Assembly: GCA_018262245.1 (NCBI GenBank)
Contig: JAGTRV010000009.1
Span: forward strand, 1-35,452
DNA: 35,452 bases
From: Pseudomonadota bacterium
GTDB taxonomy: Bacteria; Pseudomonadota; Gammaproteobacteria; Burkholderiales; Rhodocyclaceae
Direction: 5' to 3'
Of the stretch, positions 1,281 to 30,377 are shown in pieces (the first letter of the stretch is position 1; every line of letters begins with the position of its first letter). The position numbers were made by a program, and so were the translations under genes. The notes beneath the pieces are model-generated. The model was not told the origin of the DNA. It saw only the letters and a program-made list of their open reading frames with translations, and made no database searches.

Positions 1281-1299
1281 CAACATGGAGCTAAACAGC

Positions 1300-2448
1300 A
1301 TGACCGTTACCCTACGCACCCTCACCGCCAACGATACCGAAGCCCTGGAGCAGGTTCGCCAGTACTTCCGCAACTATGCGGCCTGGCTGGGCGTCGACCT
1401 GTCGTACCAGAACTTCGATCAGGAAATGGCCTCGCTGCCCGGCACCTATGTCGCACCGCAGGGCCGCCTGTTCTTTGCCGAAGTGGATGGTCGCCCGGCC
1501 GGCTGTGTCGGCGTTCGCCCGCTGCCGGACAGCGATGGTGTCTGCGAAATGAAGCGCCTCTATGTCGATCCGGCCGAACGCGGCCACGGGATCGGTGCCG
1601 CGCTGGCGCTGGCCGCGATCAAGGCGGCCAAGGAAATCGGTTTCCGCAAGCTGATGATCGACACCCTGCCCAACATGCGTATGGCCGTGAAGCTCTACCG
1701 CGAACTGGGCTTCACCGAAGCACCGAACTATTACCAGACGCCAGTCGAAGGCACGATGTTCCTCGCCCTTGATCTGGAAAACTGGTCGGAAGAAGAAATC
1801 CGCAGCGAAAACCTGTCGCACCTGTTCGACTTCAACCGCGCCTGGGCCCGCCAGATGCAGGAAGTCGACCCAACCTACTTCGACCGCCTGTCCCACCTGC
1901 AGACCCCGGAATTCCTGTGGATCGGCTGCTCCGATTCGCGCGTCCCGGCCAACCAGATCGTCGGCCTGCTACCGGGCGAGGTCTTCGTCCATCGCAACGT
2001 TGCCAATGTCGTCGTCCATACCGACCTCAACTGCCTGTCGGTGATCCAGTACGCGGTCGATGTGCTGAAGGTCAAGCACATCATGGTCGTCGGCCATTAC
2101 GGCTGCGGCGGCGTCGGCGCGGCTTTGCAACGGGACCGGGTCGGCATCGTCGACCTCTGGCTGCGTCACGTTCATGACGTGCATAACAAGCATCTGGCCA
2201 ACGTCAACAGTCTGCCGGAAGCGCAACGCCACGACCGCCTTTGCGAGCTGAACGTACTGGAGCAGGTGGTCAATGTCTGCCACAACCCGGTCGTCCAGGA
2301 TGCCTGGAGCCGCGGCCAGCAACTGACCGTCCACGGCTGGGTTTACGGCCTGAAAGACGGCCTGATCCACGACCTCGGCATCACGATCGATTGCCCACAG
2401 GATTTGCCTTCCCGCTACGACGCCGCACTCAAAGCGTTGGACGCCTAG
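1300..2448 (+). CDS. GNAT acetyltransferase / beta-carbonic anhydrase fusion
   Basis: One 382-residue reading frame carries two complete enzyme domains. Residues ~1-160 are a GNAT N-acetyltransferase with the acetyl-CoA pyrophosphate loop RGHGIG (94-99) and a typical C-terminal AVKLYRELGF. Residues ~168-382 are a beta-carbonic anhydrase close to E. coli Can: zinc ligands Cys210, Asp212, His266 and Cys269 (IGCSDSR and GHYGCGG) with the Asp212/Arg214 dyad all present. The second domain interconverts CO2 and bicarbonate, the co-substrate of methylcrotonyl-CoA carboxylase encoded downstream. The GNAT substrate is unknown. The ATG at 1300 has GGAG nine bases upstream; an alternative ATG at 1285 has its AGGAG buried in a hairpin. 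The gene lies 28 bases before the thiolase gene in the same operon. The linker between domains is only about ten residues and there is no stop or frameshift, so this is a true fusion. Confidence 0.92.
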   Translation: MTVTLRTLTANDTEALEQVRQYFRNYAAWLGVDLSYQNFDQEMASLPGTYVAPQGRLFFAEVDGRPAGCVGVRPLPDSDGVCEMKRLYVDPAERGHGIGAALALAAIKAAKEIGFRKLMIDTLPNMRMAVKLYRELGFTEAPNYYQTPVEGTMFLALDLENWSEEEIRSENLSHLFDFNRAWARQMQEVDPTYFDRLSHLQTPEFLWIGCSDSRVPANQIVGLLPGEVFVHRNVANVVVHTDLNCLSVIQYAVDVLKVKHIMVVGHYGCGGVGAALQRDRVGIVDLWLRHVHDVHNKHLANVNSLPEAQRHDRLCELNVLEQVVNVCHNPVVQDAWSRGQQLTVHGWVYGLKDGLIHDLGITIDCPQDLPSRYDAALKALDA

Positions 2449-2476
2449 TTACAACAACCACTCAGGAGAAATCAGC

Positions 2477-3667
2477 ATGAATGACCCGATCGTTATCGTT
2501 TCCGCCGCCCGTACCGCCATGGGCGCCTTTCAGGGCGGCTTTGCCGGCCTGACCGCCGCCAATCTCGGCGCCGTGGCCATCAAGGCCGCTGTCGAGCGCG
2601 CCGGCATCGACGCCAACCTGATCGAAGAAGTGCTGATGGGCTGCGTGCTGCAAGCCGGCCAGGGCCAGGCTCCGGCCCGCCAGGCCGCACTGCAGGCCGG
2701 CCTGCCCCTCTCCGCCGGTTGCGCCACCATCCACAAGGTTTGCGGTTCGGCCATGAAGGCGACCATGCTCGGCCACGACGGCATTCTGGCCGGTTCCTAC
2801 GGTGCGGCCGTGGTGGGCGGCATGGAGTCGATGACCAATGCCCCCTACCTGCTGCCCAAGGCCCGCGGCGGTTACCGCCTCGGTCACGGCCAGCTGATGG
2901 ACCACATGTTCCTCGACGGCTTGGAAGACTCCTACGGCAAGGAAACCCGCGGCCGCCTGATGGGCACCTTTGCCGAAGAATGCGCTGCCAGCTACGGCTT
3001 CACCCGCGAAGCGCAGGATGAATTTGCTGTCCGCTCGACGACCCGCGCCATCGAAGCCAGCAACAACGGCAGCTTCGCCTGGGAAATCGCCCCGACCACC
3101 GTCGCCGGCCGCAAAGGCGACGTCGTGATCGACAAGGACGAAGGCCCGTTTGCCGTCAATGTCGAAAAAATCCCGACCCTGAAGCCGGCTTTCAAGAAAG
3201 ATGGCACGGTCACCGCCGCCAACTCCTCGTCGATTTCCGACGGCGCCGCCGCGATGGTGCTGATGCGTCAATCGCAAGCCGCCAAGCTCGGCCTGCAGCC
3301 GATTGCCCGCATCGTCGGCCATACCACCCATGCCGGTACGCCCGCCCTGTTCCCGTCCGCTCCGGTCGGTGCCATGCAGAAGCTGTTCGCCAAGACCGGC
3401 TGGACCGCTGAGTCGGTCGATCTGTATGAAATCAACGAAGCCTTCGCTGTCGTTACCATGGCCTCGCTGCACGACCTCAAGCTCGACCCGGCCAAGGTCA
3501 ACATCCACGGCGGCGCCTGCGCGCTGGGCCACCCGATCGGCGCTTCCGGCGCCCGCATCGTCGTCACGCTGTTGGGCGCCCTGAAGAAGTACGGCAAGAA
3601 GCGTGGCGTGGCCAGCCTGTGCATCGGCGGCGGCGAAGCAACGGCACTCGCGGTGGAAATGCTGTAA
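2477..3667 (+). CDS. Acetyl-CoA C-acetyltransferase (thiolase)
   Basis: This 396-residue thiolase has the full catalytic set: nucleophile Cys89 (HKVCGSAMK), the NEAFA loop, His352 in GHPIGASGA and Cys382 in SLCIGGGEA. The length and spacing match biosynthetic-type acetoacetyl-CoA thiolases such as PhaA/AtoB. In this context it would cleave acetoacetyl-CoA, formed from the acetoacetate released by LiuE, into two acetyl-CoA. A CoA-transferase to activate acetoacetate is not seen in the window. The start ATG has AGGAG at 2463-2467. Other roles such as PHB synthesis or beta-oxidation cannot be excluded from sequence. Confidence 0.93.
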   Translation: MNDPIVIVSAARTAMGAFQGGFAGLTAANLGAVAIKAAVERAGIDANLIEEVLMGCVLQAGQGQAPARQAALQAGLPLSAGCATIHKVCGSAMKATMLGHDGILAGSYGAAVVGGMESMTNAPYLLPKARGGYRLGHGQLMDHMFLDGLEDSYGKETRGRLMGTFAEECAASYGFTREAQDEFAVRSTTRAIEASNNGSFAWEIAPTTVAGRKGDVVIDKDEGPFAVNVEKIPTLKPAFKKDGTVTAANSSSISDGAAAMVLMRQSQAAKLGLQPIARIVGHTTHAGTPALFPSAPVGAMQKLFAKTGWTAESVDLYEINEAFAVVTMASLHDLKLDPAKVNIHGGACALGHPIGASGARIVVTLLGALKKYGKKRGVASLCIGGGEATALAVEML

Positions 3668-4582
3668 TTGCCGCAAAAGGGCCATTCGCTCACTTACGCC
3701 AAACTGGTCGCTGCGATGTTTTTTTGGGGAGGCACCTGGATTGCCGGGCGCATCATCGCGCAGGAGCTATCGGCGCCGCTGGCTGTCGCCTCGATTCGCT
3801 TCGTGGTGACGGCGCTGGCGCTGGCCGGTTTCGCGCTACTCACGGGCAAAGGCGCTCCGGCGCCGAAAACTGCCCGTGAGTGGGGCGTGGTGAGCGGTTT
3901 GGGCTTTTTCGGCATCTTCCTTTACGGCCTGTGCTTCTTCTTCGGCCTGCAGCACATCACGGCCGGGCGCGGCGCGCTGGTCGTGGCGCTCAACCCGGTC
4001 GTCATTGTGCTGGCCGCCTGGCTGTTCGGGCATGAACGGATGAACCGGCGCAAGGCGCTGGGTAGCGCCATTGCCCTGGCCGGCTGCCTGACGGTGATCG
4101 GCAATGGCAATCCGCTGGCGCTGGTCGAAGGCACGGTCGGCATTGGCGAGTGGCTGATCGTCGGTTGCGTGATGAGCTGGACGGCCTACACCTTCATCGG
4201 CCGGATGGCGACCAGGACGCTGTCACCGCTGGCCACGACGCTCTACGCCAGCCTGATCGGCGCCCTGCTGCTTGGGGTGGCCGCACTGGTCCAGGGCGAT
4301 ATCGAACCGGCCAGCTGGTCTTGGCGGGTGTGGACCGGCCTGTTTTTCCTTGCCATTTTCGGCACCGCCATCGCCTACACCTGGTTCACCGAAGCGGTGC
4401 ACACGCTGGGCGCGGGGCATGCCTCGGTATTCATCAATCTGGTCCCCGTCTTTGCCGTACTGCAGGCGGCGCTGCTGCTCGACGAGCGCCTTGGCCTGCC
4501 CGTGCTGTTCGGCGGCCTGCTGGTCATCGCCGGTGTCTGGCTGACCACGAAACAAAAGATTTCTTTGGAGATAAGCAAATGA
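3668..4582 (+). CDS. EamA/DMT-family transporter
   Basis: This is a 304-residue inner-membrane protein of the drug/metabolite transporter superfamily with about ten hydrophobic helices in two EamA repeats. The first repeat opens with FFWGGTWIAGR and closes with a MNRRKALGSAIALAGC segment; the second ends at DERLGLPVLFGGLLVIAGVWL. The probable start is TTG, directly abutting the TAA of the thiolase gene, which implies translational coupling; the next in-frame ATG (3716) lies inside the first helix. It overlaps the next gene by 4 bp (ATGA). The substrate is unknown. Placement between thiolase and acyl-CoA dehydrogenase suggests export of an amino acid or acid intermediate, but that is inference. 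Confidence 0.85.
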   Translation: MPQKGHSLTYAKLVAAMFFWGGTWIAGRIIAQELSAPLAVASIRFVVTALALAGFALLTGKGAPAPKTAREWGVVSGLGFFGIFLYGLCFFFGLQHITAGRGALVVALNPVVIVLAAWLFGHERMNRRKALGSAIALAGCLTVIGNGNPLALVEGTVGIGEWLIVGCVMSWTAYTFIGRMATRTLSPLATTLYASLIGALLLGVAALVQGDIEPASWSWRVWTGLFFLAIFGTAIAYTWFTEAVHTLGAGHASVFINLVPVFAVLQAALLLDERLGLPVLFGGLLVIAGVWLTTKQKISLEISK

Positions 4583-5715
4583 TTCTGACCCAAGAACAAG
4601 AAATGATCCGTGACTCGATGCGCGCCTTCGCGCAGGAGCGCCTCGCCCCCTTCGCCGCCGAATGGGACAAGAACCATACCTTTCCGGCCGAGGCCCTGAA
4701 GGAACTCGGCGAACTGGGCGCCATGGGCATGGTTGTGCCCGAGGAATGGGGCGGCGCCGGCATGGATTACATGTCGCTGGTGCTGACGCTGGAAGAAATC
4801 GCGGCCGGCGACGGCGCCACCTCGACCATCGTCTCGGTCCAGAATTCGCTGGCCTGCGGCATTACTGCCAAGTACGGCACCGACGCGCAGAAGGAAGAAT
4901 GGCTGAAGCCGCTGGCCCGTGGCGAAAAACTGGGCTGTTTCTGCCTGACCGAGCCACATACCGGCTCCGACGCCGCCGCGATCACCACGCGCGCCGACCG
5001 CGATGGCGACCATTTCGTGCTGAACGGCGTCAAGCAGTTCATCACCACTGGCAAATACGCCCACATGGCCATCGTCTTTGCCGTCACCGACAAAGCCGCC
5101 GGCAAAAAGGGCATTTCCTGCTTCCTGATCCCGACCGATACCAAGGGCTTCATCGTCGGTCGCACCGAGGACAAGATGGGCCAGCACGCGTCCGACACCG
5201 TACAGATCATTTTTGAAGACTGTCGTGTGCCGGCTTCCGCCCTGCTCGGCAAGGAAGGCGAAGGCTACAAGATCGCCCTGTCCAATCTCGAAGCCGGCCG
5301 GATCGGCATCGCTTCGCAAAGCATCGGCATGGCCCGCGCCGCGTTTGAAGCGGCGGTGCGTTACGCCAAGGAACGGGTCACCTTCGGCGTGCCGATCATC
5401 GAGCACCAGGCGGTCAACTTCCGCCTTGCCGACATGAACACCTTGCTCGACGCTGCCCGCCTGATGGTCTGGCGCGCCGCGATGCTCAAGGATGCCGGGA
5501 AGCCCTGCCTGAAGGAAGCCTCGATGGCCAAGATGTTCGCCTCCGAGGCTGCCGAGAAGATCGCTTCCGACGCCATCCAGATCCACGGCGGGGTCGGTTA
5601 CACCAGTGATTTCCCGGTTGAACGCATCTATCGTGATGTCCGCATCTGCCAGATCTATGAGGGCGCCAACGACATCCAGCGTCTGGTCATCGGCCGAAGC
5701 ATCGCTGCCGAGTAA
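4579..5715 (+). CDS. Acyl-CoA dehydrogenase (short/branched-chain type)
   Basis: This 378-residue FAD-dependent dehydrogenase has CLTEPHTGSDA, FITTGKYA, an arginine-rich FAD contact and the C-terminal IYEGANDIQR. The catalytic base is Glu361 in YEGAND, the position used by short-chain, medium-chain and 2-methylbutyryl/isobutyryl-CoA dehydrogenases, unlike LiuA. A long in-frame upstream extension exists, but it is the shadow of the transporter gene. The ATG at 4579 overlaps the transporter stop (ATGA) and has GGAG at 4567-4570. In a branched-chain amino-acid cluster a role on valine- or isoleucine-derived acyl-CoAs is likely, but substrate specificity cannot be read from sequence. Confidence 0.9.
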   Translation: MILTQEQEMIRDSMRAFAQERLAPFAAEWDKNHTFPAEALKELGELGAMGMVVPEEWGGAGMDYMSLVLTLEEIAAGDGATSTIVSVQNSLACGITAKYGTDAQKEEWLKPLARGEKLGCFCLTEPHTGSDAAAITTRADRDGDHFVLNGVKQFITTGKYAHMAIVFAVTDKAAGKKGISCFLIPTDTKGFIVGRTEDKMGQHASDTVQIIFEDCRVPASALLGKEGEGYKIALSNLEAGRIGIASQSIGMARAAFEAAVRYAKERVTFGVPIIEHQAVNFRLADMNTLLDAARLMVWRAAMLKDAGKPCLKEASMAKMFASEAAEKIASDAIQIHGGVGYTSDFPVERIYRDVRICQIYEGANDIQRLVIGRSIAAE

Positions 5716-5758
5716 GCCACAAACCGGCGGCCGCTGCCAACAGAGAAGGAGACAAGAC

Positions 5759-6376
5759 ATGACCGATAGCGACAAGAACCCGATCGATTTCTGGTTCGAT
5801 TTTTCCAGCCCCTACGGCTACCTGATGAGCGAGAAGATCGATGCCATGGCGGCCAAATTTGGCCGCAAGGTGCGCTGGCACCCTGTGCTGCTCGGCGTCA
5901 TTTTCCAGGCCACCGGCTCGCGTCCGCCGGCTGACGGCGTCAGCAGCAAGGGCAAGTACATGCTGCACGACTTCCATCGTTCAGCGCGCCACATGGGCAT
6001 TCCGTACAACCCGCCGAGCCACTTCCCGCTGCCGACGCAGAACGCCGCCCGCGCCTACTACTGGCTGCACGGTCAGGACTGCGCGCAGGCCCGTCAGTTC
6101 GCCCATGCCGTCTATCGCGCCTTCTTCGTCGACGACCTTGATATTTCCTCTCCGGACACCGTGCTGGACATTGCAGCCAAGCTTGGCATCGACCGCGAAC
6201 AACTGGCCACCGCATTGCAGGCGCCCGAGATCAAGGCCCGCCTCAAGGACGAATGCGACAAGGCGCTGGCCGCCGGCGTCTTCGGTTCGCCACACGTGAT
6301 CATCGACGGCGAAGCCTTCTTCGGCGCCGACCGTCTGCCGCAGATCGAACACTGGCTGGAAACGGGCGGTTTTTAA
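5759..6376 (+). CDS. GST-kappa/DsbA-like 2-hydroxychromene-2-carboxylate isomerase family protein
   Basis: This 205-residue thioredoxin-fold protein has the N-terminal FWFDFSSPYGYL motif, in which a serine around residue 16-17 replaces the CxxC cysteine, and the C-terminal GVFGSPHVIIDGEAFFGADRL block typical of the isomerase/GST-kappa family. These enzymes use glutathione; the name comes from naphthalene degradation, but no aromatic pathway is visible here, so the natural substrate is unknown. The start ATG has AAGGAG at 5746-5751. It sits 43 bases after the acyl-CoA dehydrogenase gene and is probably co-transcribed. Confidence 0.85.
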   Translation: MTDSDKNPIDFWFDFSSPYGYLMSEKIDAMAAKFGRKVRWHPVLLGVIFQATGSRPPADGVSSKGKYMLHDFHRSARHMGIPYNPPSHFPLPTQNAARAYYWLHGQDCAQARQFAHAVYRAFFVDDLDISSPDTVLDIAAKLGIDREQLATALQAPEIKARLKDECDKALAAGVFGSPHVIIDGEAFFGADRLPQIEHWLETGGF

Positions 6377-6397
6377 GCAAGGTTTTCCGGGACAAAC

Positions 6398-6997
<600 letters not shown>

Positions 6998-7053
6998 CGC
7001 TTTTCAGGAAATCAGAAATTCAGGCAAACGGAAACAAATAAAAGCGAGGAGAC

Positions 7054-8661
7054 ATGACCGTACTGAAAACCCAACTCAATCCGCGAAGCGCCGACTTTCA
7101 GGCCAACGCGGACGCCATGCGGACGGTAGTTGCCGACCTGCATGAAAAGGTCGACAAGATTGCCCTCGGTGGCCCGGAAGCTGCCCGCCAGAAACATCTG
7201 GCGCGCGGCAAGCTGCTGCCCCGCGAGCGGGTCAGTGGCCTGCTCGATCCTGGCACGCCCTTCCTCGAAATCGGCCAGTTCGCTGCTTACGGCATGTACG
7301 GCGGCGATGTGCCGGCCGCCTCGGTGATCGCCGGCATCGGCCGCGTCCATGGGGTTGAGTGCATGGTCGTCGCCAACGATGCGACCGTGAAGGGCGGCAC
7401 CTACTACCCGCTGACGGTGAAAAAACACCTGCGGGCACAGGAAATTGCGCTCGAAAACCACCTGCCCTGCGTCTATCTGGTCGACTCCGGCGGCGCCTTC
7501 CTGCCCATGCAGGACGAGGTCTTCCCGGACAAGGAGCACTTCGGCCGCATCTTCTTCAACCAGGCCAATCTGTCGGCCAAGGGCATCCCGCAGATCGCCG
7601 CGGTGATGGGCTCGTGCACCGCTGGTGGCGCCTACGTGCCGGCGATGTGCGACGAGTCGATCATCGTCAAGAACCAGGGCACGATCTTCCTCGGTGGCCC
7701 ACCGCTGGTCAAGGCGGCGACTGGCGAAGTCGTCTCGGCCGAAGATCTGGGCGGCGCTGACGTCCATACCCGCATTTCCGGCGTCGTCGACCACCTGGCC
7801 GAGAACGATGCCCATGCGCTGGCCATCGCCCGCCGCATCATCAAGGACCTGAACTGGAAGAAGCAGCCGCCGGTCACCCTGACCGCCCCGGCCGAGCCGC
7901 TCTATTCGGCCGATGAGCTGTACGGCGTGATCCCGACCGACAGCAAGAAGCCTTTCGACGTGCGCGAAATCATCGGTCGCATCGTCGATGGCTCCGATTT
8001 CGACGAATTCAAGGCCCGTTACGGCACAACCCTGGTCTGCGGCTTTGCCCGCATCTACGGCTACCCGGTCGGCATCGTCGCCAACAACGGCATCCTGTTC
8101 AGCGAATCGGCCCTCAAAGGCGCCCACTTCATCGAACTCTGCGCCCAGCGCGGCATTCCACTGGTTTTCCTGCAGAACATCACCGGATTCATGGTCGGCC
8201 GCAAGTACGAAAACGGCGGTATCGCGCGCGACGGCGCCAAGATGGTCACTGCCGTCGCCACCGCCAAGGTGCCGAAATTCACCGTGGTGATTGGCGGCTC
8301 GTTCGGTGCCGGCAACTACGGCATGTGCGGCCGCGCCTACTCGCCGCGTTTCCTGTGGATGTGGCCGAACGCCCGCATCTCGGTGATGGGCGGCGAACAG
8401 GCCGCCGGCGTGCTGGCCACCGTCAAGCGCGACGGCATGGAAGCGACCGGCAAGAGCTGGAGCGCCGAGGAAGAAGCGGCCTTCAAGGCGCCAATCCGCG
8501 AACAGTACGAGACGCAGGGCCACCCCTACTACGCCTCGGCCCGCCTGTGGGACGACGGCATCATCGATCCGGCCGATACCCGCCGGGTGCTGGGTTTGGG
8601 ACTGTCGGCCTCGATGAATGCACCGGCCGAAGAAACGAAGTTCGGCATCTTCCGGATGTAA
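7054..8661 (+). CDS. liuB: Methylcrotonyl-CoA carboxylase, carboxyltransferase (beta) subunit
   Basis: This 535-residue acyl-CoA carboxyltransferase transfers the carboxyl group from carboxybiotin on LiuD to 3-methylcrotonyl-CoA, giving 3-methylglutaconyl-CoA. Two crotonase-like halves are visible. The N half has [18 protein letters not shown] and [16 protein letters not shown]; the C half has [17 protein letters not shown] and [25 protein letters not shown], the wording characteristic of methylcrotonyl-CoA rather than propionyl-CoA carboxylase. GAGGAG at 7046-7051 precedes the ATG. Geranyl-CoA carboxylase is the main alternative, but liuE and liuA in the same run favour leucine degradation. 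Confidence 0.95.
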
Positions 8662-8664
8662 GCG

Positions 8665-9282
8665 ATGTACCTGCCCAAGCACTTCGCGGAAACCGAGATT
8701 GGCACCCTGCACGCGCTGATGCGCGAGTATCCGCTCGCCACGCTGGTCAGTCATGGCCCGGATGGTCTGAACGCCAATCACATCCCGCTGCATCTGGATG
8801 CTGACGCCAGCCCGAACGGAACCCTGCAAGGCCATATCGCCCGAGCCAATCCGCTGGCCAAGGCATCGGCCGTCGACGGTGAAATTCTGGTCATTTTCCA
8901 GGGGCCGGAGGGTTATATCAGCCCCTCCGGCTACGCGACCAAGGCCGAGCACGGCAAGGTCGTGCCGACCTGGAACTACACGGCGGTCCATGCCTATGGC
9001 CAGCTGCGCCTGGTCGACGATGCGGACTGGGTGCTGGCCCGGGTATCCGCCCTGACCAAGGCGCACGAAGCCAGCCTGTCACAACCTTGGGCAGTCAGTG
9101 ATGCGCCCGCCGATTACATTGAGAAAATGCTGGGCGCCATCGTCGGCATCGAAATCACCATCAGCCGCCTGGTCGGCAAATGGAAAGTCAGCCAGAACCA
9201 GCCGGCGGCCAATCAGGCCAGCCTGATCGCGGCGCTGGAGGGCCAGCCGATGGCCGATCTGATCCGGCAACGACAACAATAA
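8665..9282 (+). CDS. PaiB-like FMN-binding protein
   Basis: This 205-residue protein belongs to the PaiB (FMN-binding split-barrel) family: MYLPKHFAE at the N terminus, TLVSHGPDGLNANHIP, then KAEHGKVVPTWNYTAVHAYG, which is the family signature. The usual family segment YISPSWY reads YISPSGY here, a Trp to Gly change beside the presumed flavin pocket. PaiB of Bacillus was described as a repressor of sporulation and protease genes, but many homologues have no proven role. It begins three bases after the liuB stop and ends 12 bases before liuC, so it is embedded in the liu operon and co-translated with it. A flavin-dependent oxidoreductase role is possible. Confidence 0.85.
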   Translation: MYLPKHFAETEIGTLHALMREYPLATLVSHGPDGLNANHIPLHLDADASPNGTLQGHIARANPLAKASAVDGEILVIFQGPEGYISPSGYATKAEHGKVVPTWNYTAVHAYGQLRLVDDADWVLARVSALTKAHEASLSQPWAVSDAPADYIEKMLGAIVGIEITISRLVGKWKVSQNQPAANQASLIAALEGQPMADLIRQRQQ

Positions 9283-9294
9283 TTGGAGCGAGAC

Positions 9295-10080
9295 ATGTTC
9301 ACCGCACTAGAAATCGAATTGAACGGCCCGGTCGCCACGATCTGGATGAACCGACCCGACCTGCACAACGCTTTCGACGAAACCCTGATCGCCGAACTGA
9401 CGGCTGCCTGCATCGCACTGAATGAGGACGAAGACGTCCGCGTCGTCATCCTCGCCGGGCGCGGCAAGAGCTTCTCGGCCGGGGCCGACCTCAACTGGAT
9501 GAAACGCGCCGCCAATAACGGTCTTGACGACAACCTGAACGACGCCCGGGCGCTGGCCAAGATGCTGCGCACGCTGGCCGAGATGAAGAAACCGACCATT
9601 GCCCGCGTCCAGGGCGCTGCCCTCGGTGGCGGCATGGGCCTGGCCGCCACCTGCGACATCGCTGTCGCTTCGAGCAAGGCGATATTCGCCACTTCGGAGG
9701 TCAAGTTCGGCATCATCCCTTCGGCCATTTCACCCTACGTGCTGCGCGCCATCGGCGCCCGCCAGGCAACCCGCTACTTCCAGTCGGCCGAACGCATCGA
9801 CGCTTTCCGTGCCCGTGAGCTGGGGCTGGTCCATGAAGCCGTCAGCCCGGAAGACCTGGATGCCAAGATTCAGGAAATCGTCGCCACGCTGCTGCAAGGC
9901 GGCCCGCTCGCCCAGGCTGCCGCCAAGGACCTGATCCACGCCGTCGATAGCCGACCGATCAACGACAACCTGGTCGAGGACACCGCCCACCGCATCGCCC
10001 ACCTGCGCGCCACGCCGGAAGCCCGCGAAGGCATCGCCGCCTTCCTCGACAAACGTTCGCCGAACTGGATGGGGGAATAA
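9295..10080 (+). CDS. liuC: Methylglutaconyl-CoA hydratase (crotonase family)
   Basis: This 261-residue enoyl-CoA hydratase/isomerase-family enzyme is expected to hydrate 3-methylglutaconyl-CoA to HMG-CoA. Oxyanion-hole segments FSAGADL (60-66) and ALGGGMGLA (109-117) are present. The position of the first catalytic glutamate of classical hydratases is Gly115, while a glutamate equivalent to the second is kept at Glu135 (TSEVKFGI); this pattern is common in liu/atu-type hydratases. The ATG at 9295 has GGAG at 9285-9288; an in-frame TTG at 9283 is inside the ribosome site. It lies two bases before liuD. Confidence 0.92.
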   Translation: MFTALEIELNGPVATIWMNRPDLHNAFDETLIAELTAACIALNEDEDVRVVILAGRGKSFSAGADLNWMKRAANNGLDDNLNDARALAKMLRTLAEMKKPTIARVQGAALGGGMGLAATCDIAVASSKAIFATSEVKFGIIPSAISPYVLRAIGARQATRYFQSAERIDAFRARELGLVHEAVSPEDLDAKIQEIVATLLQGGPLAQAAAKDLIHAVDSRPINDNLVEDTAHRIAHLRATPEAREGIAAFLDKRSPNWMGE

Positions 10081-10082
10081 GC

Positions 10083-12083
10083 ATGTTTAACAAGATCCTG
10101 ATTGCGAACCGCGGAGAAATAGCCTGCCGCGTCATCAAGACCGCTCGCCGCATGGGCATCCGCACCGTGGCCGTCTATTCCGAAGCCGATGCCAACGCCC
10201 GCCATGTTCGGCTGGCCGACGAAGCCGTGCTGCTTGGCCCGGCTGCCGCCCGCGAATCCTACCTGGTCGCCGACAAGATCATCGACGCCTGCAAGCGCAC
10301 CGGCGCCCAGGCAGTCCACCCCGGTTATGGCTTCCTGTCCGAAAATGCCGACTTTGCCGATGCGCTGGCAGCCAGCGGCATCGCCTTCATCGGCCCGCCG
10401 GCTTCGGCCATCCGCGCCATGGGCTCCAAGTCAGAAGCCAAGAAACTGATGGGCAGTGCCGCCGTGCCGCTCACGCCGGGCTATCACGGCGATGATCAAA
10501 CCCCCGCCCTGCTCCACAAGGAAGCCGACGCCATCGGCTACCCGGTGCTGATCAAGGCGGCCGCCGGCGGTGGCGGCAAAGGCATGCGCCTGGTCGAGAA
10601 GTCGGAAGATTTCCCCGATGCGCTGGCCTCCTGCAAGCGCGAGGCGATTTCCAGCTTCGGCGACGACCATGTGCTGATCGAGAAGTACATCACCAAGCCG
10701 CGCCACATCGAAATTCAGGTCTTTGCCGACACACTGGGCAATTGCGTTTATCTGTTCGAACGCGACTGCTCCGTGCAGCGCCGCCACCAGAAGGTGCTGG
10801 AAGAAGCCCCTGCCCCCGGCATGCCGGAAGAGCGTCGCCGCCAGATGGGCGAAGCTGCGGTCGCCGCCGCCCAGGCGGTCGGTTACGTTGGTGCCGGTAC
10901 AGTCGAGTTCATTGCCAACCAGGATGGCTCGTTCTATTTCATGGAAATGAACACCCGCCTGCAGGTCGAACACCCGGTCACCGAAATGATCACCGGGCAA
11001 GATCTGGTCGAATGGCAATTGCGCGTCGCCTCGGGCGAGCCGCTGCCGCTGCGCCAGGAACAGCTGCAGATTCGCGGCCATGCGCTGGAAGCCCGCATCT
11101 ACGCCGAAGACGCCAGCAAGGGTTTCCTGCCGGCCACCGGCAAGCTGGTTCGCCTCGCCCCGCCGGCCGAATCGCTGAATGTCCGCGTCGATACCGGCGT
11201 CGAACAGGATGACGAGATCACGCCCTTCTACGACCCGATGATCGCCAAGCTGATCGTCTGGGACGAGCATCGCGATGCCGCACTGGCCCGCATGCGCAAG
11301 GCGCTGGCCGACTATCAGGTGGCCGGCGTCACGACCAATATCGATTTCCTGTCCCGCCTCGTCGCCTGCCCGGCCTTCGCCGGCGCCGACCTCGATACCG
11401 GCCTGATCGAACGCCAGAAGGAATTCCTCTTCCCCGAAACGCAAGCCGTGCCGCGCGATGTGCTACTGGTCGCCACGGTCGGCGAACTGCTCTGGGAACA
11501 GCACGAGGCCAAGCTGGCCGCCAGAGCCAGCGGCGATCCCTATTCCCCGTGGCATGCCCGTGACGGCTGGCGAATGAACCTGTCTTCAGCCCGCACCATC
11601 AGCTTCCGGGATGGCGAAGCGCTGGTCGACACCCAGGTCCGCTATCAGCGCGACCAGTGGCAGATCACGCTGAATGGCGAAACCACCCTGGCCCGCGGCA
11701 AGAAGCTCGACGGCGACCGCTTTGCCGTCGAATTCGACGACCGCCGCCTGATCGCCAGCGTCGTGGCTGTCGCCGACAAGCGCAGCATCTTCCTGCAAGG
11801 CACCACCTTCACGTTGCTTCGCGACGATCCGCTGCATCGCGTTGATGCCGGCGATAGCCATGGTGGCGGCCTGACCGCACCGATGCCGGGCAAGGTCGTG
11901 GCCCTCCTCGCCCAGCCCGGCCAGAAGGTCGAAAAAGGCACGCCACTGCTGATCCTCGAAGCGATGAAGATGGAGCACACCATCACGGCACCGGCTGCCG
12001 GCACCGTCAAGGCCTTCTGCTACGCGGCTGGCGAACAGGTGAGCGACGGCGCCGCGCTGGTCGAGTTCGAAAGCGAGGCATAA
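10083..12083 (+). CDS. liuD: Methylcrotonyl-CoA carboxylase, biotin-carrying (alpha) subunit
   Basis: This 666-residue protein carboxylates its own biotin using ATP and bicarbonate. Residues 1-450 are the biotin carboxylase domain, with the ATP-grasp glycine loop GGGGKGM (162-168), the [12 protein letters not shown] block and [14 protein letters not shown] middle BT linker domain follows, and the C terminus is a biotinyl domain with EAMKME, modified lysine Lys629. The start is two bases after liuC and preceded by a GGGGGAA purine run. Partner subunit LiuB is encoded three genes upstream. The GNAT-carbonic anhydrase fusion in the same cluster may feed it bicarbonate. Confidence 0.95.
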   Translation: MFNKILIANRGEIACRVIKTARRMGIRTVAVYSEADANARHVRLADEAVLLGPAAARESYLVADKIIDACKRTGAQAVHPGYGFLSENADFADALAASGIAFIGPPASAIRAMGSKSEAKKLMGSAAVPLTPGYHGDDQTPALLHKEADAIGYPVLIKAAAGGGGKGMRLVEKSEDFPDALASCKREAISSFGDDHVLIEKYITKPRHIEIQVFADTLGNCVYLFERDCSVQRRHQKVLEEAPAPGMPEERRRQMGEAAVAAAQAVGYVGAGTVEFIANQDGSFYFMEMNTRLQVEHPVTEMITGQDLVEWQLRVASGEPLPLRQEQLQIRGHALEARIYAEDASKGFLPATGKLVRLAPPAESLNVRVDTGVEQDDEITPFYDPMIAKLIVWDEHRDAALARMRKALADYQVAGVTTNIDFLSRLVACPAFAGADLDTGLIERQKEFLFPETQAVPRDVLLVATVGELLWEQHEAKLAARASGDPYSPWHARDGWRMNLSSARTISFRDGEALVDTQVRYQRDQWQITLNGETTLARGKKLDGDRFAVEFDDRRLIASVVAVADKRSIFLQGTTFTLLRDDPLHRVDAGDSHGGGLTAPMPGKVVALLAQPGQKVEKGTPLLILEAMKMEHTITAPAAGTVKAFCYAAGEQVSDGAALVEFESEA

Positions 12084-12120
12084 TGATCCTCGCTTACCGA
12101 CCTCTCTCGCCAGCCTGACC

Positions 12121-12750
12121 ATGAACGATCTGCGCAGAAAACTGATTCTTGTCGGCGGCATGGCCGCGATCCCGATGGCGACCGGCTGCTTCACCAGCGC
12201 CCTCGTCCAGGATGCGACCACCCCGGACCGTACGGTCTATGCCGAAACCGTGTCATCGATTCTGGTTTCCGGTGACGGCAAGGCGCTGGTCGTCGTGGGT
12301 GAGAAGTACCATTACATCTTCGATGCTCCGGAAACGGTCAAAGCGACACTGCAATCGGATTTCCGCAAGATCGTTGAAGTCGGCTTCGACCGGTTTGTCG
12401 TCGATACCTCGCAGCGCATCACCGGCACTTACCGACTGCGCATCGACAAGAATGCGCCGGCCGAACAAAAGGAAAAGGCTTTGGCGGCCGGCTTCAAGGC
12501 GCTACCCACGGGCGAACTGGTCGCCAGCGGCAGCGTTACCGGCCAACGCTATGCGGCCAATGGTATCCAGCCCACGGACGCCAGCCAGAAGCTGCAAAAG
12601 GAATACCAGGTTTCCATCGCCGAAGAGAAAGCCCTCGGGGCGAAACCGGCCAAGCTGCTGCTGACGCCGATTACCATCGCCGTCGACGGCGTCCTGTTCC
12701 TCGCCGCAATACCGCTGCTGGCGCTGGTTGCCTTCGCATCCCAGCGCTGA
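12121..12750 (+). CDS. Putative lipoprotein of unknown function
   Basis: This 209-residue protein is not recognised. The N terminus looks like a lipoprotein signal: basic NDLRRK, hydrophobic LILVGGMAAIP, then MATGC with Cys23 as probable lipidation site (a slightly non-canonical lipobox). The C terminus (about residues 178-206) is a second strongly hydrophobic stretch ending in SQR. Having both a lipid anchor and a terminal transmembrane helix is unusual. The middle is polar with repeated short beta-like segments. It follows liuD by 37 bases; a CATAAT near 12079-12084 could be a weak -10 element. No clear ribosome site is visible. Confidence 0.7.
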   Translation: MNDLRRKLILVGGMAAIPMATGCFTSALVQDATTPDRTVYAETVSSILVSGDGKALVVVGEKYHYIFDAPETVKATLQSDFRKIVEVGFDRFVVDTSQRITGTYRLRIDKNAPAEQKEKALAAGFKALPTGELVASGSVTGQRYAANGIQPTDASQKLQKEYQVSIAEEKALGAKPAKLLLTPITIAVDGVLFLAAIPLLALVAFASQR

Positions 12751-12946
12751 GCCCCTCCATCCGGCGCCACGTCGCGACCAAACGAATCATGATGCAACGA
12801 CTCGAACAACAGGCAGAAACCGGATTGCGTACCATGGAAGCAAACTCCATCACCTTCGGGACACGGCTGCCGCAGATGGGCAACCGAAACCACCGGGAAC
12901 AGCCAAGCATTTACCACTTGATCCACCTGTCGTTACGGGAGCCGCG

Positions 12947-13630
12947 ATGTCCAACCAAAGCCTAGTCGGCAAGCGAGTGCTCATCACCCAGGCCGATATG
13001 TTCATGGGGCCAGTGCTCTGCGAGGTATTTGCCCGGCATGGCGCAACGGTCATTGCCAATACGGATGCTCTGCTTGCGCCTGATGCCCCGGCCACCGTGG
13101 TCGCACAAGCAGGTCAGATTGATGCGCTGGTCGCCAATCTGGCCATACCGGCACCGACGACAGCAGCCACGGAAGTCTCGGATGAGGAATGGCGTGACAC
13201 CTTCGCCATCCTCGTCGATCCGCTGGCCCGATTGTTTCGTGCGACCCTGCCAGCCATGATAGAGCGGCGGTCTGGCAAGATTCTGGTGATGGGCAGCGCG
13301 TCGGCCCTGCGCGGGATGAAGCGTGCGTCCACCTACAGCGCTGCACGCGGTGCCCAGTTGGCCTACGTTCAGGCAGTCGGCGTCGAAGTCGCGCCGCACA
13401 ACGTTCAGGTCAATGCCATTGCACAGAATTTCGTCGATAACCCGACTTATTTCCCGCCCGAAGTTCAGGCCAACCCGCGCTTCCAGGAGCGCCTGAAGCG
13501 TGAGGTTCCGCTCGGGCGTCTGGTCGGCGCCGATGAAGATGCCGAGTTTGCGGCCTATCTTTGCAGCGATTCGGCGAATTGTTTTGTCGGGCAGGTCTTT
13601 CCGGTTTGCGGCGGCTGGGTGATGCGCTAG
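12947..13630 (+). CDS. Halohydrin dehalogenase-like SDR protein
   Basis: This 227-residue protein has a short-chain dehydrogenase fold but not the SDR cofactor motif. Where SDRs have TGxxxGxG it reads T14-QADM-F19-M-G21, an exact match to the T-x4-F-x-G halide-pocket motif of halohydrin dehalogenases. The catalytic set is Ser117-x12-Tyr130-x3-Arg134, with arginine instead of the SDR lysine, again the dehalogenase triad. The C-terminal FVGQVFPVCGGWVMR also resembles that family. Known members release halide from vicinal halohydrins to form epoxides and open epoxides with nucleophiles, without NAD(P)H. The ATG at 12947 has GGGAG at 12937-12941; the in-frame extension to 12728 is non-homologous and overlaps the lipoprotein gene. 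It lies between liuD and liuE, but no halogenated substrate is obvious there. A catalytically repurposed SDR is the alternative. Confidence 0.82.
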   Translation: MSNQSLVGKRVLITQADMFMGPVLCEVFARHGATVIANTDALLAPDAPATVVAQAGQIDALVANLAIPAPTTAATEVSDEEWRDTFAILVDPLARLFRATLPAMIERRSGKILVMGSASALRGMKRASTYSAARGAQLAYVQAVGVEVAPHNVQVNAIAQNFVDNPTYFPPEVQANPRFQERLKREVPLGRLVGADEDAEFAAYLCSDSANCFVGQVFPVCGGWVMR

Positions 13631-13715
13631 CGAAGCCTGATCCCGCTGCTTTAAAACGAATAGCGCCTGCTTTTGTTTAACCAAACCTCTCAAAATCCAC
13701 TGCCGAGCATTCGCC

Positions 13716-14621
13716 ATGTCCCTCCCCGCCAAAGTCAAAATCGTCGAAGTCGGCCCGCGTGACGGACTGCAGAACGAAAAGCTGGTCGTCCCGACCGACA
13801 TCAAGATCGAACTGATCAACCGACTGGCCGATGCCGGCCTGAGCGTCATCGAGGCCACCTCCTTCGTATCGCCGAAGTGGGTGCCGCAGATGGGCGACAA
13901 CGCTGCCGTGATGCAGGGCATCAAGCGGAACCCGTCGACCATTTACACAGCCTTGACGCCAAATCTGCAGGGATTTGATGGTGCCGTACAGGCCGGCGCC
14001 AACGAAGTCGCCATTTTTGGTGCGGCATCGGAGAGTTTTTCCCGAAAAAACATCAATTGCTCGATTGCCGAGAGCCTGAAACGCTTCGAACCCGTCGTTT
14101 CAGCCGCTTCGGCACTGGAAATCCCGGTCCGCGGCTATGTTTCCTGCGTCGTCGGCTGCCCCTACGAGGGTGCGGTCGATCCGCAAAAAGCGGCCGAAGT
14201 GGCGAAAATCCTGTTCGACATGGGCTGCTACGAAGTCTCGCTCGGCGACACCATCGGTGTTGGCAATCCAGCCACCATCCAGCGCATGATCGAGGCCTGT
14301 GCAAAACATATCCCGATCAGCAAGCTGGCCGGGCACTATCACGACACCTACGGCATGGCCATCGCCAACATTTACGCTTCGCTGGAGATGGGCATGGCAG
14401 TTTTCGACAGTTCCATCGCCGGCCTCGGCGGCTGCCCCTACGCCAAAGGCGCCTCCGGCAATGTGGCGACGGAAGACGTCGTTTATTTATTACACGGCCT
14501 GGGCATTGAAACCGGCATCGATCTGGCTAAACTGGCAGGTATCGGCGACTGGATTTCCAGCGCCATCAATCGCCCGAATGGAGCCAAGGCCGGCCGGGCC
14601 CTTTGTACCGGGAACGAGTGA
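13716..14621 (+). CDS. liuE: Hydroxymethylglutaryl-CoA lyase
   Basis: This 301-residue TIM-barrel lyase cleaves HMG-CoA to acetyl-CoA and acetoacetate, the last committed step of leucine breakdown. It begins with the family motif [12 protein letters not shown], has [10 protein letters not shown] carrying metal-binding histidines, and the signature [17 protein letters not shown] with the active-site Cys240. Length is typical of bacterial enzymes. The 85-base gap upstream (13631-13715) holds AT-rich sequence and may contain a secondary promoter; no strong ribosome site is seen before the ATG. Its stop overlaps the next start (GTGA). Confidence 0.95.
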
Positions 14622-23348: not shown

Positions 23349-25151
23349 TCAGGACGAACGGCTGGCCAGCCAGGTCCGCCAGCCACCGAAGGCCGTGATG
23401 TCCTCGGCGCTGGGCACGGCAGCTCCCTCACAGATGAAGCCGCAGACCTCGCTGCCGTCTTCGAGGCGGACTTTGCCGATGCCCAGCGGCGCCGGAATGC
23501 CGGCGACGAAATCGCCGAAGCGCTCGCTCGGCAATTCCCAGACCTCCATGTCGATAGCGCTACCGCCTTCGTTAACCCGAACCATGCCCGGCCGCTGAGG
23601 CGGACCGCCGGCCAAGGCGTAGAAATAGTAGTCCGGCGCTGAGCGGCAGACCGAGATCAACCGCCCCCCGCGCTGCGTCAGCTGCCAGTTGAGCGGCAGC
23701 CCCGACAGGTGCGCCCCGCAAACAGCAACGCGCACGCGGCCACCAGCCGTCGGATCGACCGCCAGCCCGGGCTCCACTGTTGCCAGTCCGTCCGAGGTGC
23801 CAAGCGGCAGAGCGCTATCCGCCTGCCAGCGCGCCGCCAGTTCGAGCAGCGGAATATCCTGATGCGCCGGGGCGAACAACGTCACGCCAAAGGGCAGCCC
23901 GTCCGGACGGAAGGCAGCCGGCACGGCCACCGCCGAGTAATCGAGCAGGTTCATGAAATTGGTGTAGTAGCCGAGATCGCTGTTCAGGCGGATCGGGTCG
24001 GCCTCGACCGCAGCAATGGTCGGCTGGAAGCCGGCGGTTGGCGTGATGATCAGGTCCAGTTCGGACCACACGGCATCGCAGCTGCGCTTCAGCTCGCGCA
24101 GTCGATAGGCGGCAGCGAAAGCCTCGACCGCCGTTGCCCGCCCCCCGGCCAGCGTGATCTCGCGGGTCACCGGGAACAGTGATTCAGGCTGGCGCTCGAT
24201 GAAATCCTTGATCGCGTGATAGCGCTCGGCCACCCAGGGGCCGCCGTAGAGCAGACGAGCCGTTTCGAGGAAGGGCGCGAAATCGATCTCGCAGCGCTGC
24301 CCGCCAAGCCGCACCAGACTGGCAACGGCGGCCGCGAACAGGGCGGGATTGATGGTATCGCCGAAGAAGGCCAGTTGATCGTCCCTCGGCACGCCAAAAC
24401 GGAAGGCATCGCCAGCCGGAAATCCACGGCCATGCGCCTGCAGCGGCCGGCTGAAGGGATCGGCGGCATCGTAGCCGGCGGCGGCAGCAAAGACCTTGGC
24501 CGCATCCCCGGCACTCAGGGTGAAGATCGACACCGTATCGAGCGAGCGGCAGGCCGGCACGACACCGCGCGACGACAGCAGGCCGCAACTCGGTTTCAGG
24601 CCGACCAGATTATTGAAAGCCGCCGGCACCCGCCCAGAACCGGCCGTGTCGGTGCCCAGCGCGAAGCTGACCTGGCCGAGCGCCACCGCGACCGCCGAAC
24701 CGGAACTGGAACCGCCAGAGATATAGGCCGGGTTGAAGGCATTGCGGCAAGCGCCAAAAGGCGATCGCGTGCCGTTCAAACCAGTGGCGAACTGGTCGAG
24801 GTTGGTCTTGCCAAGAGGAATCGCCCCGGCCGCCATCAATCTGGCGACGACCACGGCACTTTCGGCAGGCTGATAAGCGTAGTCCGGACAACCGGCCGTC
24901 GTCGGCAGGCCGTCGAGATCAATGTTGTCCTTGACGGCAAAGGGGATGCCGTAGAGCGGCAAAGTTGCCGGATCGCGGCCTTCCAGCGCATCGGCCAGGG
25001 CGAGCAGGCGCTCCTCGGGCAACAGGCTGATCCAGGCTTGGCGGGTGTCGTCCTGTGCAAGGCGCAACAGATGGCGAAACAGATCACGCGGTTTCAGGCC
25101 AGCCCGGTAGGCGGCGGCCAGGCTGGCGAAATCGAGTTGGGCGGGAATCAT
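23349..25151 (-). CDS. atzF: Allophanate hydrolase
   Basis: This 600-residue amidase-signature enzyme hydrolyses allophanate, yielding ammonia and CO2. The catalytic triad is visible: Lys74 (FAVKDNID), cis-serine Ser148 in SGGSSSGSA and nucleophile Ser172 in GTDTAGSGRVP. A C-terminal domain (~465-600; VAVCGAHLSGLPLNWQL onward) matches the AtzF/DUR1,2 extension thought to decarboxylate the intermediate. It starts nine bases after the carboxylase stop with AGGAGAG as ribosome site. It is the last step of the pathway encoded by this operon and is followed by a terminator. Confidence 0.94.
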   Translation of the reverse strand: MIPAQLDFASLAAAYRAGLKPRDLFRHLLRLAQDDTRQAWISLLPEERLLALADALEGRDPATLPLYGIPFAVKDNIDLDGLPTTAGCPDYAYQPAESAVVVARLMAAGAIPLGKTNLDQFATGLNGTRSPFGACRNAFNPAYISGGSSSGSAVAVALGQVSFALGTDTAGSGRVPAAFNNLVGLKPSCGLLSSRGVVPACRSLDTVSIFTLSAGDAAKVFAAAAGYDAADPFSRPLQAHGRGFPAGDAFRFGVPRDDQLAFFGDTINPALFAAAVASLVRLGGQRCEIDFAPFLETARLLYGGPWVAERYHAIKDFIERQPESLFPVTREITLAGGRATAVEAFAAAYRLRELKRSCDAVWSELDLIITPTAGFQPTIAAVEADPIRLNSDLGYYTNFMNLLDYSAVAVPAAFRPDGLPFGVTLFAPAHQDIPLLELAARWQADSALPLGTSDGLATVEPGLAVDPTAGGRVRVAVCGAHLSGLPLNWQLTQRGGRLISVCRSAPDYYFYALAGGPPQRPGMVRVNEGGSAIDMEVWELPSERFGDFVAGIPAPLGIGKVRLEDGSEVCGFICEGAAVPSAEDITAFGGWRTWLASRSS

Positions 25152-25160
25152 GATCTCTCC

Positions 25161-28100
25161 TCAGGAGGTCTTGAGAACCAGCAGATCCTGACCGGCGGCA
25201 ACCGGGCTGGCCTCCTGGCAAAGCAGTTGCAGGACTTCGCCGTCCGCCGGGGCGGGGACGGTGAATTCCATCTTCATCGACTCGACAATGACCAGCGGTT
25301 CGCCCGCCTTGACCCTCTGGCCGGGCGTCACCAGGATCTTCCAGACATTGCCGGGAACATGGTTTACCACCAGGCTGGCGCCCTCAGGCAGGTCGAGCTC
25401 GCTGTCGGTGCCGGCAGCGGCAATGTCGCTCTCGCTGATGTATTCCGCCTGCCCGGCCTCTTTCCAGCGCTCGCGCTCGGCCTCGAAAGCCGCCTGCTGG
25501 CGGGCCTTGAAGTCGCCGATGGACGCTGCGTTATCGGTCAGGAATTGACGGTAGTCGGATAACCGGAAGCTGCCTTCCTCGATGCGAACACTGGCCCGGC
25601 CGGCCAGAAAGTCCTGGCGCCAGCGCACCAGTTCCTGTTCGCTGACCGGGGTGAAGCGTACCTGGTCGAAGAAGCGCAGCAGCCAGGGCTGGGCGAACTG
25701 CGCCGTACCCCGTGCCCCGTGGTTCCAGCGATTCCACATCTGCACCGTACGACCGACGAACTGGTAGCCGCCGGGCCCTTCCATGCCATAGACGCACATG
25801 TAGGCGCCACCGATGCCGACGGCGTTTTCCGGCGTCCACGTCCGGGCCGGGTTGTACTTGGTCGTCACCAGGCGATGCCGGGGATCGACCGGCGTCGCCA
25901 CCGGCGCACCAAGGTAAACGTCACCAAGGCCGAGCACCAGATAGCTGGCCTCGAAGACCGTGGCATAGACCTGCTCGATTGACTCCAGACCATTGATGCG
26001 GCGGATGAATTCGATGTTCGATGGACACCAAGGCGCATCCTTGCGCACCGACTGCATGTACTTTTCGATCGCCAGCTTGGTCGCTGGATCGTCCCAGGAC
26101 AGGGGGAGCCACACCGTCCGGCTCGGCACGACCATGTCGTCCACCGCCGGCAGCGCCTGTTCTGCCGCCTGCAGCATGGCAAGCAGCACCGCCCGATCGC
26201 AGCGACGGGCATCGAAATGCACCTGCAGCGAGCGGATACCGGGCGTCAGGTCGAGGATGCCCGGCTGCGGATTGGCCTTCAGCCAGTCCATCAGGGCCTG
26301 AACCCGGAAGCGCAACTCGATGTCGAGCACCAGCGGACCGTACTCAACCAGCAGATAGGCATCGCCGGCCTGGCGATAGACCACGCGCGGCCGGTCGCCG
26401 GCCGCCGGCAACTCGGCCAGGACAGGCGTGCCGAGCTCCGCCACGGCGCTTGGCAAGCGCGTCGTCAAAGGCGCAGCCAGGCTGGCAACGGCCTGATCGA
26501 CTTCGCCCAGACGACATGCAGCACTGGCCGCGCTGATCGGCAGGAAGCGCACCGTATCGCCCGGCCGCAGCTGGCCGAGCTTCCACAATTCCGCCTGGGC
26601 AACCACGGCCGGGCAGACAAAGCCGCCGAGGCTGGGGCCATCCGGCCCGAGAATGACCGGCATATCGCCGGTGAAATCGATGGCACCTATGGCGTAGGCG
26701 TTGTCGTGAATGTTCGACGGATGCAGCCCGGCCTCGCCGCCATCAGTCCGCGCCCACGCCGGTTTCGGCCCGATCAGCCGGACCCCGGTGCGGCTGGAGT
26801 TGTAATGCACCTCCCAGTCAGTCGCGAAGAAGGTTCCGATATCGCCATCGGTGAAGAAATCCGGTGCCCCGTGCGGGCCGTAGAGCACCCCGATTTCCCA
26901 GTGATGGCCATAGACCGGCGCCATTTCGGCCGGCAGCGCCACCATCGGCAAGGTTTCTGCCGCCTCGATATGCAGCACATCACCCAGCCGCAGCGTGCGT
27001 CCGCCATGGCCGCCGAACTGGCCGAGCGTGAAGGTGGATTTGCTGCCCAGATAGTCGGGAACGTCGATACCGCCCGCCACCGCCAGATAACTGCGGCAAC
27101 CGGCATCACGGATGGCGCCGATCTTGAGGATGCTGCCAGCCTTGACGGCATGCGCCTGCCAGAAGGCCAGCGGCTCGCCATCGAGGGTCGCGGCGGTTTC
27201 GGCCCCGCTCAGGGCAATCACCGCCGGGCAATTGAACTTGAGCGTCGGTCCCGTCATCGTGCATTCCAGACCGGCCATGCCCTCCGGATTGCCAACCAGC
27301 CGGTTGGCCGCCCGCAAGGCCAGGTCATCCATCGGCCCGGAGGGCGGCACGCCGACATCCCAGTAGCCGACTCGACCCGGCCAGTCCTGTACCGAGGTCT
27401 GGACACCGGGTTCCAGAACATCGATGCTCGCCGGCTGGTAATGGAAGGCATTGAGGTAGCGCGTTGTCTGTTCTCCGGAACGGAAAACACTGCCGGCCAG
27501 AATCTGGCGCAGGTACTCGCGATTGGTCTCGATGCCGGCGACTCGCGTCGTGGCCAGTGCTGCTGCCAGCTTGTCGACAGCAGCCTCACGGCTTTCGGCA
27601 TGAACGATCAGCTTGGCGACCATCGGGTCGTAATAGGGCGGCACCTCGGAGCCCGTCTTGACCGCCGTCTCGACCCGCACGCCCTCGGGAAAAGTGACCT
27701 CGGTCAGCAGGCCGGAGGAAGGCTGGAAATTCTTGTTCGGATCTTCGGCATAGAGGCGCACCTGGATCGACGCACCCTGCGGCGTCGGTGCCGTGGCCGG
27801 CAATTGCAGGTCACCGGACGCGAGCAGCACCATCCAGGCAACGAGATCGACACCGGTCACCTCTTCGGTCACGCCGTGTTCAACCTGCAGGCGGGTATTG
27901 ACCTCGAGGAAGTAGAAGGCGCCGGTCGCCGCATCCATCACGAACTCGACCGTCCCGGCCGAGCGGTAGGACACCGAAGCCATCAGGCGTACCGCCGTTT
28001 CGGCCAGACCCTGGCGCTGGGCATCGTTCAGGCCGGGAGCCGGCGTTTCCTCGATCACCTTCTGGTTACGGCGCTGCACCGAACAATCCCGCTCGCCGAG

Positions 28101-28766: not shown

Positions 28767-28785
28767 GTTGTCGTCTCTCGTTTGA

Positions 28786-28826
28786 CGGGTCGTCCCGCCG
28801 GATTCTTTTGCCTCCGGGTCGTCCCG
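28786..28826. repeat. Pair of 12-bp direct repeats upstream of the carboxylase gene
   Basis: CGGGTCGTCCCG occurs exactly at 28786-28797 and 28815-28826, a 29-base period, in the 76-base gap between the DUF1989 gene and the carboxylase gene. Each copy is itself a small dyad (CGGG...CCCG). This could be a regulator-binding pair, RNA structure, or a local duplication; there is no other evidence for function. Confidence 0.6.
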
Positions 28827-28842
28827 AAAGCTGTTGCCGGCT

Positions 28843-29496: not shown

Positions 29497-29506
29497 GGTC
29501 ATCTCC

Positions 29507-30329: not shown

Positions 30330-30377
30330 GACAGTCTCCATGTTGGGTTGCGACGCGAGAGGGCGCTTCGATAAGCG

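Follow-up and report, generated by a model that had tools for sequence, protein, structure and literature searches.

A predicted D-type halohydrin dehalogenase gene in a leucine-degradation cluster, with some close relatives arranged like integron gene cassettes

Halohydrin dehalogenases (HHDHs) convert vicinal halo-alcohols into epoxides without a cofactor, and the reaction is reversible with small anions. The enzyme family is much used. Two sequence motifs serve as fingerprints of HHDHs according to PMC4989007 and PMC11976700; the first is the nucleophile- or halide-binding loop of known HHDHs (PMC11976700), and the second holds their catalytic residues (both papers). D-type HHDHs have already been described up to HheD38, and an identity of at least 57% to verified HheD enzymes is the range for HheD19-38, according to excerpts of PMC4989007. 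The same paper states that only two HHDH genes then known shared an operon with an epoxide hydrolase. Among solved structures, 7b73 is the halohydrin dehalogenase HheD2 (excerpt of PMC9629495) and 8xxb carries the PDB title of an HheD8 triple mutant with chloride bound. HheD12 and its relatives from the Pseudomonas pertucinogena lineage are D-type by their authors' assignment (PMC6922532), and we liken them to the present protein by description. The literature searched, mostly papers outside subscription, yielded no association of HHDHs with integrons and no paper joining HHDH with methylcrotonyl-CoA, or with leucine and operon; wider searches on integrons likewise listed no paper naming HHDHs in its title or the opening of its abstract.

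The window, by which we mean the whole analysed stretch of 35,452 nt of Rhodocyclaceae DNA, contains a single open frame at 12947-13630 on the plus strand encoding a protein of 227 aa, predicted from its motifs, identities and predicted fold to be a D-type HHDH and here called hheD. The first-pass annotation had reported both diagnostic motifs, and we find them as it said: T14-x4-F19-x-G21 with codons at 12986-13009 (+), and S117-x12-Y130-x3-R134 with codons at 13295-13348 (+), both placed by the position of the pattern in the translation. The patterns searched were T-x4-[FY]-x-G and S-x12-Y-x3-R. A chance origin of the pair can be ruled out, as both occurred jointly in 4 of 200,000 shuffles of the window protein with motif 1 limited to the first 30 residues. 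Across the 117 rows of a quick protein tree (the window protein, 113 relatives and three solved HHDHs) motif 2 is present throughout and motif 1 in 116 rows, the sole miss being L060. T14, F19, S117, Y130 and R134 are invariant in 65/65 aligned proteins, and G21 is kept in at least 90% of them. Five of seven loci with SDR paralogues in the same genome yielded frames (L002-L006) and two, L007 and L008, yielded none; all five carry SDR motifs and none carries HHDH motif 2, while one frame of 288 aa also matches the motif 1 pattern.

A phmmer search against solved structures placed 7b73 and 8xxb at the top and HheB next. The window protein is identical to HheD2 (7b73) at 158/224 positions, 71% over the aligned stretch, to HheD8 (8xxb) at 148/223 (66%) and to HheB (4zd6) at 106/225 (47%); it is closer to the two D-type enzymes than to HheB, with an identity above the 57% mentioned above. 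An AlphaFold2 model built with 65 aligned proteins reached a mean pLDDT of 82.9 and a pTM of 0.81, with pLDDT below 50 in segments 163-168, 186-192 and 221-227. Comparison of this model with solved structures gave HHDHs as the nearest folds, HheD2 first (TM 0.87), followed by chloride-bound HheD8 (0.84) and then HheB (0.83), with SDRs at about 0.79; HHDHs take PDB ranks 1-9, rank 10 bears the title 'Dehalogenation enzyme' and the SDRs come after, the TM margin being small. The phylogeny with known Hhe types that the first-pass annotation called for covered types B and D, with HheB as the sole outgroup row. HheD2 and HheD8 branch within the relatives and belong to a 14-row set (SH-aLRT 97), with the window protein outside that set. 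HheD2 shares the motifs and is the best fold match but belongs to a tree set without the window protein, HheD8 has the same fold and motifs but sits in HheD2's set, and HheB, an HHDH with both motifs like the window protein, is much more distant. Motifs, identities, fold ranks and tree agree with the first-pass placement in the HHDH family and not among NAD(P)-dependent SDRs. Membership of the window protein in the known D-type subfamily is well supported by sequence comparison and modelling, and HHDH activity may be inferred for it by analogy with these enzymes.

The gene lies between liuD and liuE as annotated in the first pass, and Pfam and NCBIfam agree on the neighbours. All on the plus strand, these are a liuA-like acyl-CoA dehydrogenase gene (4570-5715; domains begin near 4588 and the start is not settled), a liuB-like gene for a carboxyltransferase subunit (7054-8661), a liuC-like enoyl-CoA hydratase gene (9283-10080), a liuD-like gene for the methylcrotonyl-CoA carboxylase alpha subunit, a biotin carboxylase (10083-12083), and a liuE-like hydroxymethylglutaryl-CoA lyase gene (13716-14621); the last four have Pfam and NCBIfam assignments. 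Between liuB and liuC there is a gene for an FMN-binding protein (FMN_bind_2, 8665-9282, +), which is kept in L009, L038 and L042. The first-pass annotation omitted an ORF of 209 aa at 12121-12750 (+), likewise situated between liuD and hheD. It has no Pfam match; two other genomes have a relative of it (56% and 59%) between liuD and liuE, with no hheD there.

We scanned genome contigs by tblastn (E<=1e-3) and kept the best 80 of 369 stretches, bearing in mind that the 369 may include other SDRs. These best 80 are 74-93% identical to the window protein, so that the shares of cassettes and liu clusters derived from them apply to near relatives, and many of the contigs are short. Probing with the window's neighbours revealed a liu cluster around hheD in four of the best 80 loci (L009, L010, L038 and L042). 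When the ORFs of the best 80 loci were compared all against all (ORFs >=90 aa, E<=1e-20, with a score threshold), the hheD cluster was present in 78 and any other cluster in at most six. The 142 genes adjacent to hheD in up to 74 loci, called by an in-house codon score, matched 177 Pfam families, the commonest found in five genes; this tally omits L009, L010, L025, L038, L042, L063 and ORFs below 80 aa. No recurring partner gene was found among the best 80 loci or the 142 adjacent genes. Close relatives occupy many unrelated chromosomal sites.

The family had been called rare, which fits in part: hheD is present in 29/76 genomes of the genus (30 copies, E<=1e-60), in at least 38/297 of the taxonomic family and in at least 5/369 of the class, the latter two being lower bounds as mostly nine (family) and seven (class) candidates were scored per genome. 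A plasmid collection gave one distant relative with 44.6% identity (E<=1e-30), a phage collection no relative (E<=1e-20), and in viral contigs none of the 61 stretches fitting the pattern was a relative. One genus genome, G023, carries two copies of hheD, one sited at liu and the other (locus L117) sharing 67% identity with the window protein.

The survey of liu clusters suggested in the first-pass annotation was made within the genus, where hheD loci were viewed with 1.5 kb flanks on each side. liuD is present in 60/76 genomes, hheD adjoins liu genes in six, and liu genes lie within 1.5 kb of 6/30 hheD copies, the window copy included. Together with the four loci among the best 80, these counts do not uphold the earlier idea that a position between liuD and liuE suggests a reaction linked to leucine or isoprenoid intermediates; a leucine-linked function was supported neither by the synteny test on the best 80 relatives nor by the genus survey.

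To compare the liuD-liuE gap we used 30 genus liuD loci, the best of the 60 genomes, with lengths taken from BLAST ends. Five have hheD in the gap, 17 lack hheD and have a readable liuE, and in eight liuE is not reached. Among the 17 hheD-free gaps, liuD overlaps liuE in three and 14 have inserts of approximately 238-1357 nt, which are of several kinds as judged on their first 150 nt; the relatives of the 209-aa ORF mentioned above are in two of them. The gap is a slot that takes different genes in different species. In L042 (8002-10684) the liuD stop precedes the hheD ATG by 1 nt. At the same junction in L038 (7985-10684; Dechloromonas sp. SSD3, the same stretch being found in genus genome G038) liuD and hheD form one frame of 899 aa, which may reflect either a genuine fusion or a fault in the assembly.

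On the quick tree, the liu position takes three changes to explain. In an AU test, for which L090, missing from the first tree, was added and HheB left out, holding the six liu copies together in a single clade gave a likelier tree than the quick one, and their single origin is not rejected (p 0.747). Several separate landings in the liu slot were considered, and the count of three is unsafe because the one-clade tree is likelier. A single arrival followed by losses is possible on these sequences, hence hheD may have stayed at the liu spot for a long time, perhaps for a benefit.

When the flanks of hheD were lined up, several relatives proved to have a GTTRRRY core site about 40 nt ahead of the start and a partner site about 10 nt after the stop. 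Searches for attC by regular expressions gave few sites with strict patterns, and with relaxed patterns 46 matches in real and 46 in shuffled sequence; as the two were equal, the expressions were replaced by covariance models. Model R1, built from nine attC stretches, was run over 1.285 Mb and gave 48 matches (E<=1), of which 45 are on the hheD strand. Since some of its training sites were hheD boundaries, we built model R2 from 13 attC sites away from hheD boundaries, which gave 38 matches in the same set. Seven R2 matches are at hheD edges, in six of the best 80 loci, with 0.109 expected, and outside the training loci there are five edge matches with 0.047 expected; it should be noted that these Poisson expectations treat matches as evenly spread, whereas attC sites cluster. 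The edge matches are on both sides in L028, downstream in L034, L012, L039 and L015, and upstream in L017, either 40 nt before the hheD start or 5-10 nt after the stop. Those at L039 and L015 are weak alone (E 0.23 and 0.56). R1 alone places an attC at hheD in L025, which is a training sequence, and weakly in L023. The other 72 of the best 80 loci have no attC at hheD by R1 or R2, and 74 of the best 80 have no R2 match there. In 146 kb of liuD loci, searched as a control, there was a single match, at E 8.5e-5, so single weak matches count only by position.

The clearest case is L028, a Propionivibrio MAG, in which attC sites at 231-318 and 859-928 precede hheD (969-1652) and attC sites at 1663-1731 and 2413-2479 follow it. 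This is the only locus with attC on both sides within an array, the others with R2 edge matches having attC on one side. In L031, hheD is 393 nt past the last of 13 attC sites (R1, E<0.01). Like chromosomal integron cassettes, L028 and some others have a short leader, an attC 5-10 nt after the stop, an attC ending 40 nt before the start and arrays in one orientation. A minority of the relatives look like integron gene cassettes, judged by this order of leader, ORF and attC in their sequences. The window copy, in contrast, has no attC at its 3' end: a search of 11900-14000 with filters off gave as best model scores 12.2 bits, for a match within the gene but on the opposite strand, and 5.3 bits for one on the strand of the gene. 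That some close relatives of the window gene appear, from their flanking sequences, to have spread in cassette-like fashion was unexpected.

Twelve rows of the protein tree were labelled as cassette (L012, L013, L015, L017, L023, L025, L028, L031, L034, L039, L060 and L110), with L013, L031, L060 and L110 labelled for attC elsewhere on the contig. Nine of the 12 fall in one clade of 12 rows (SH-aLRT 93); going by their titles, the rows of this clade come from beta-, gamma-, alpha- and deltaproteobacteria and from one Holophagaceae MAG. MAG contigs make up many of the loci, and odd taxa may reflect binning errors. The weak case L023 adjoins the window's own clade, and L039 and L110 are elsewhere in the tree. 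In a check of GC content in 11 loci, hheD exceeded its flanks by 10-15 points in L015 and L025, by 8-11 points in L031 and by 6-18 points in L032, and was 5-9 points below them in L034, the remaining checked loci being within about 7 points.

Two genus genomes, G016 (L013) and G022 (L221), have hheD on the same contig as an attC array and a match to an integron integrase; the distance from the last clear attC to hheD is 3.1 kb in G016 and 0.7 kb in G022. Both integrases look incomplete, the match covering residues 1-150 of 315 in G016 and being split between two parts of a 261-aa ORF in G022. In the latter contig (C111) the stretch 1713-9260 holds the incomplete-looking integrase and then at least seven attC sites, before hheD. 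In the genome from which the window comes, a different contig encodes a near full-length integron integrase (1-313 of 315). Integrase matches (E<=1e-50) occur in 52/76 genus genomes with no enrichment alongside hheD (18/29 with hheD, 34/47 without; Fisher p 0.45).

We speculate that D-type HHDHs are a cassette-borne, portable detoxification module passed between proteobacterial classes by integrons, the fixed copies, that in the liu cluster included, being settled cassettes without attC. Because the integrases on the same contigs seem incomplete, and because hheD is found there beyond the last clear attC, we regard this origin as a tentative proposal that may well prove wrong. If true, the role of the subfamily would be a protective function selected by habitat and not a step in a host pathway.

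As to what the protein does, Pfam and NCBIfam assign it to SDR families only (25 NCBIfam matches are listed of 181, all below their cut-offs), as would be the case for an ordinary NAD(P)-dependent SDR that resembles HHDHs by chance. This is already contradicted by the sequence, as the glycine-rich SDR motif TGxxx[AG]xG is absent from the first 30 residues in all 117 tree rows, the nearest solved structures are HHDHs and the motifs are fixed in relatives; we give it next to no credence. A repurposed fold would keep the HHDH residues and either catalyse something else, such as the addition of an anion to an epoxide in chemistry that involves no halide, or have no catalytic role at all. In the literature, other physiological HHDH functions are said to be impossible to exclude (PMC4989007) and the substrates tested on HheC are described as probably not its natural ones (PMC11976700), but dehalogenation is also taken as the natural function (PMC6434027, excerpt). 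HheD2 and HheD8 are further deposited as HHDHs, HheD8 with chloride bound, and the motif residues show the near-complete invariance given above, and we consider repurposing unlikely.

A native job in the breakdown of leucine or acyclic isoprenoids, namely an epoxide, halohydrin or nucleophile-addition reaction related to methylcrotonyl-, methylglutaconyl- or HMG-CoA, would account for the liu position. It draws on the same-strand placement of hheD beside liuD and/or liuE in six genus genomes, the 1-nt gap in L042, the in-frame joining in L038 and the possible single origin of the liu copies. On the other hand, 76 of the best 80 relatives are without a liu cluster, some of them on short contigs, most genus genomes with liuD have no hheD adjoining liu, and the slot takes unrelated genes as well. 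We know of no epoxide intermediate in the liu pathway. Altogether a leucine-linked role appears improbable, and the place of hheD in the leucine-breakdown cluster looks incidental; to infer its function from the leucine genes around it would be misleading.

The explanation we favour, and regard as quite likely, is that the gene encodes a D-type HHDH, an enzyme of epoxides and halohydrins that is portable and stands alone, and that it has here come to rest in a leucine operon. By analogy with the family, Tyr130 together with Ser117 and Arg134 would handle the proton of a vicinal halo-alcohol, whose oxygen would displace the halide as the epoxide forms; the halide would pass into the anion pocket, which T14-x4-F19-x-G21 lines. 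The reverse direction would run with halide, azide, cyanide or nitrite, and the reaction would use no NAD(P). Presence in the liu cluster would reflect a landing in the liuD-liuE gap, where hheD may be co-transcribed with its liu neighbours and yet play no part in leucine breakdown. The role of the enzyme would most likely be the processing or detoxification of environmental epoxides or halo-alcohols, although we are less certain of such a stand-alone protective or catabolic function than of the enzyme type. A lone gene found in many sites, and sometimes as an integron cassette, suggests a self-contained function under environmental selection. Cassette arrays may therefore be a place to seek new variants, and the cassette hosts named here could be used for testing function.

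Two further features of the window were observed. A cluster on the minus strand (23349-30502) encodes a urea carboxylase, an allophanate hydrolase and two DUF1989 proteins (UAAP1/2), with a Guanidine-I riboswitch upstream (30379-30502) and a Guanidine-II riboswitch inside it (28786-28830). Two classes of guanidine riboswitch hence occur in one apparent cluster, which presumably serves guanidine degradation. Finally, a single ORF at 1285-2448 (+) combines an N-terminal GNAT acetyltransferase domain with a C-terminal carbonic anhydrase (Pro_CA) domain.
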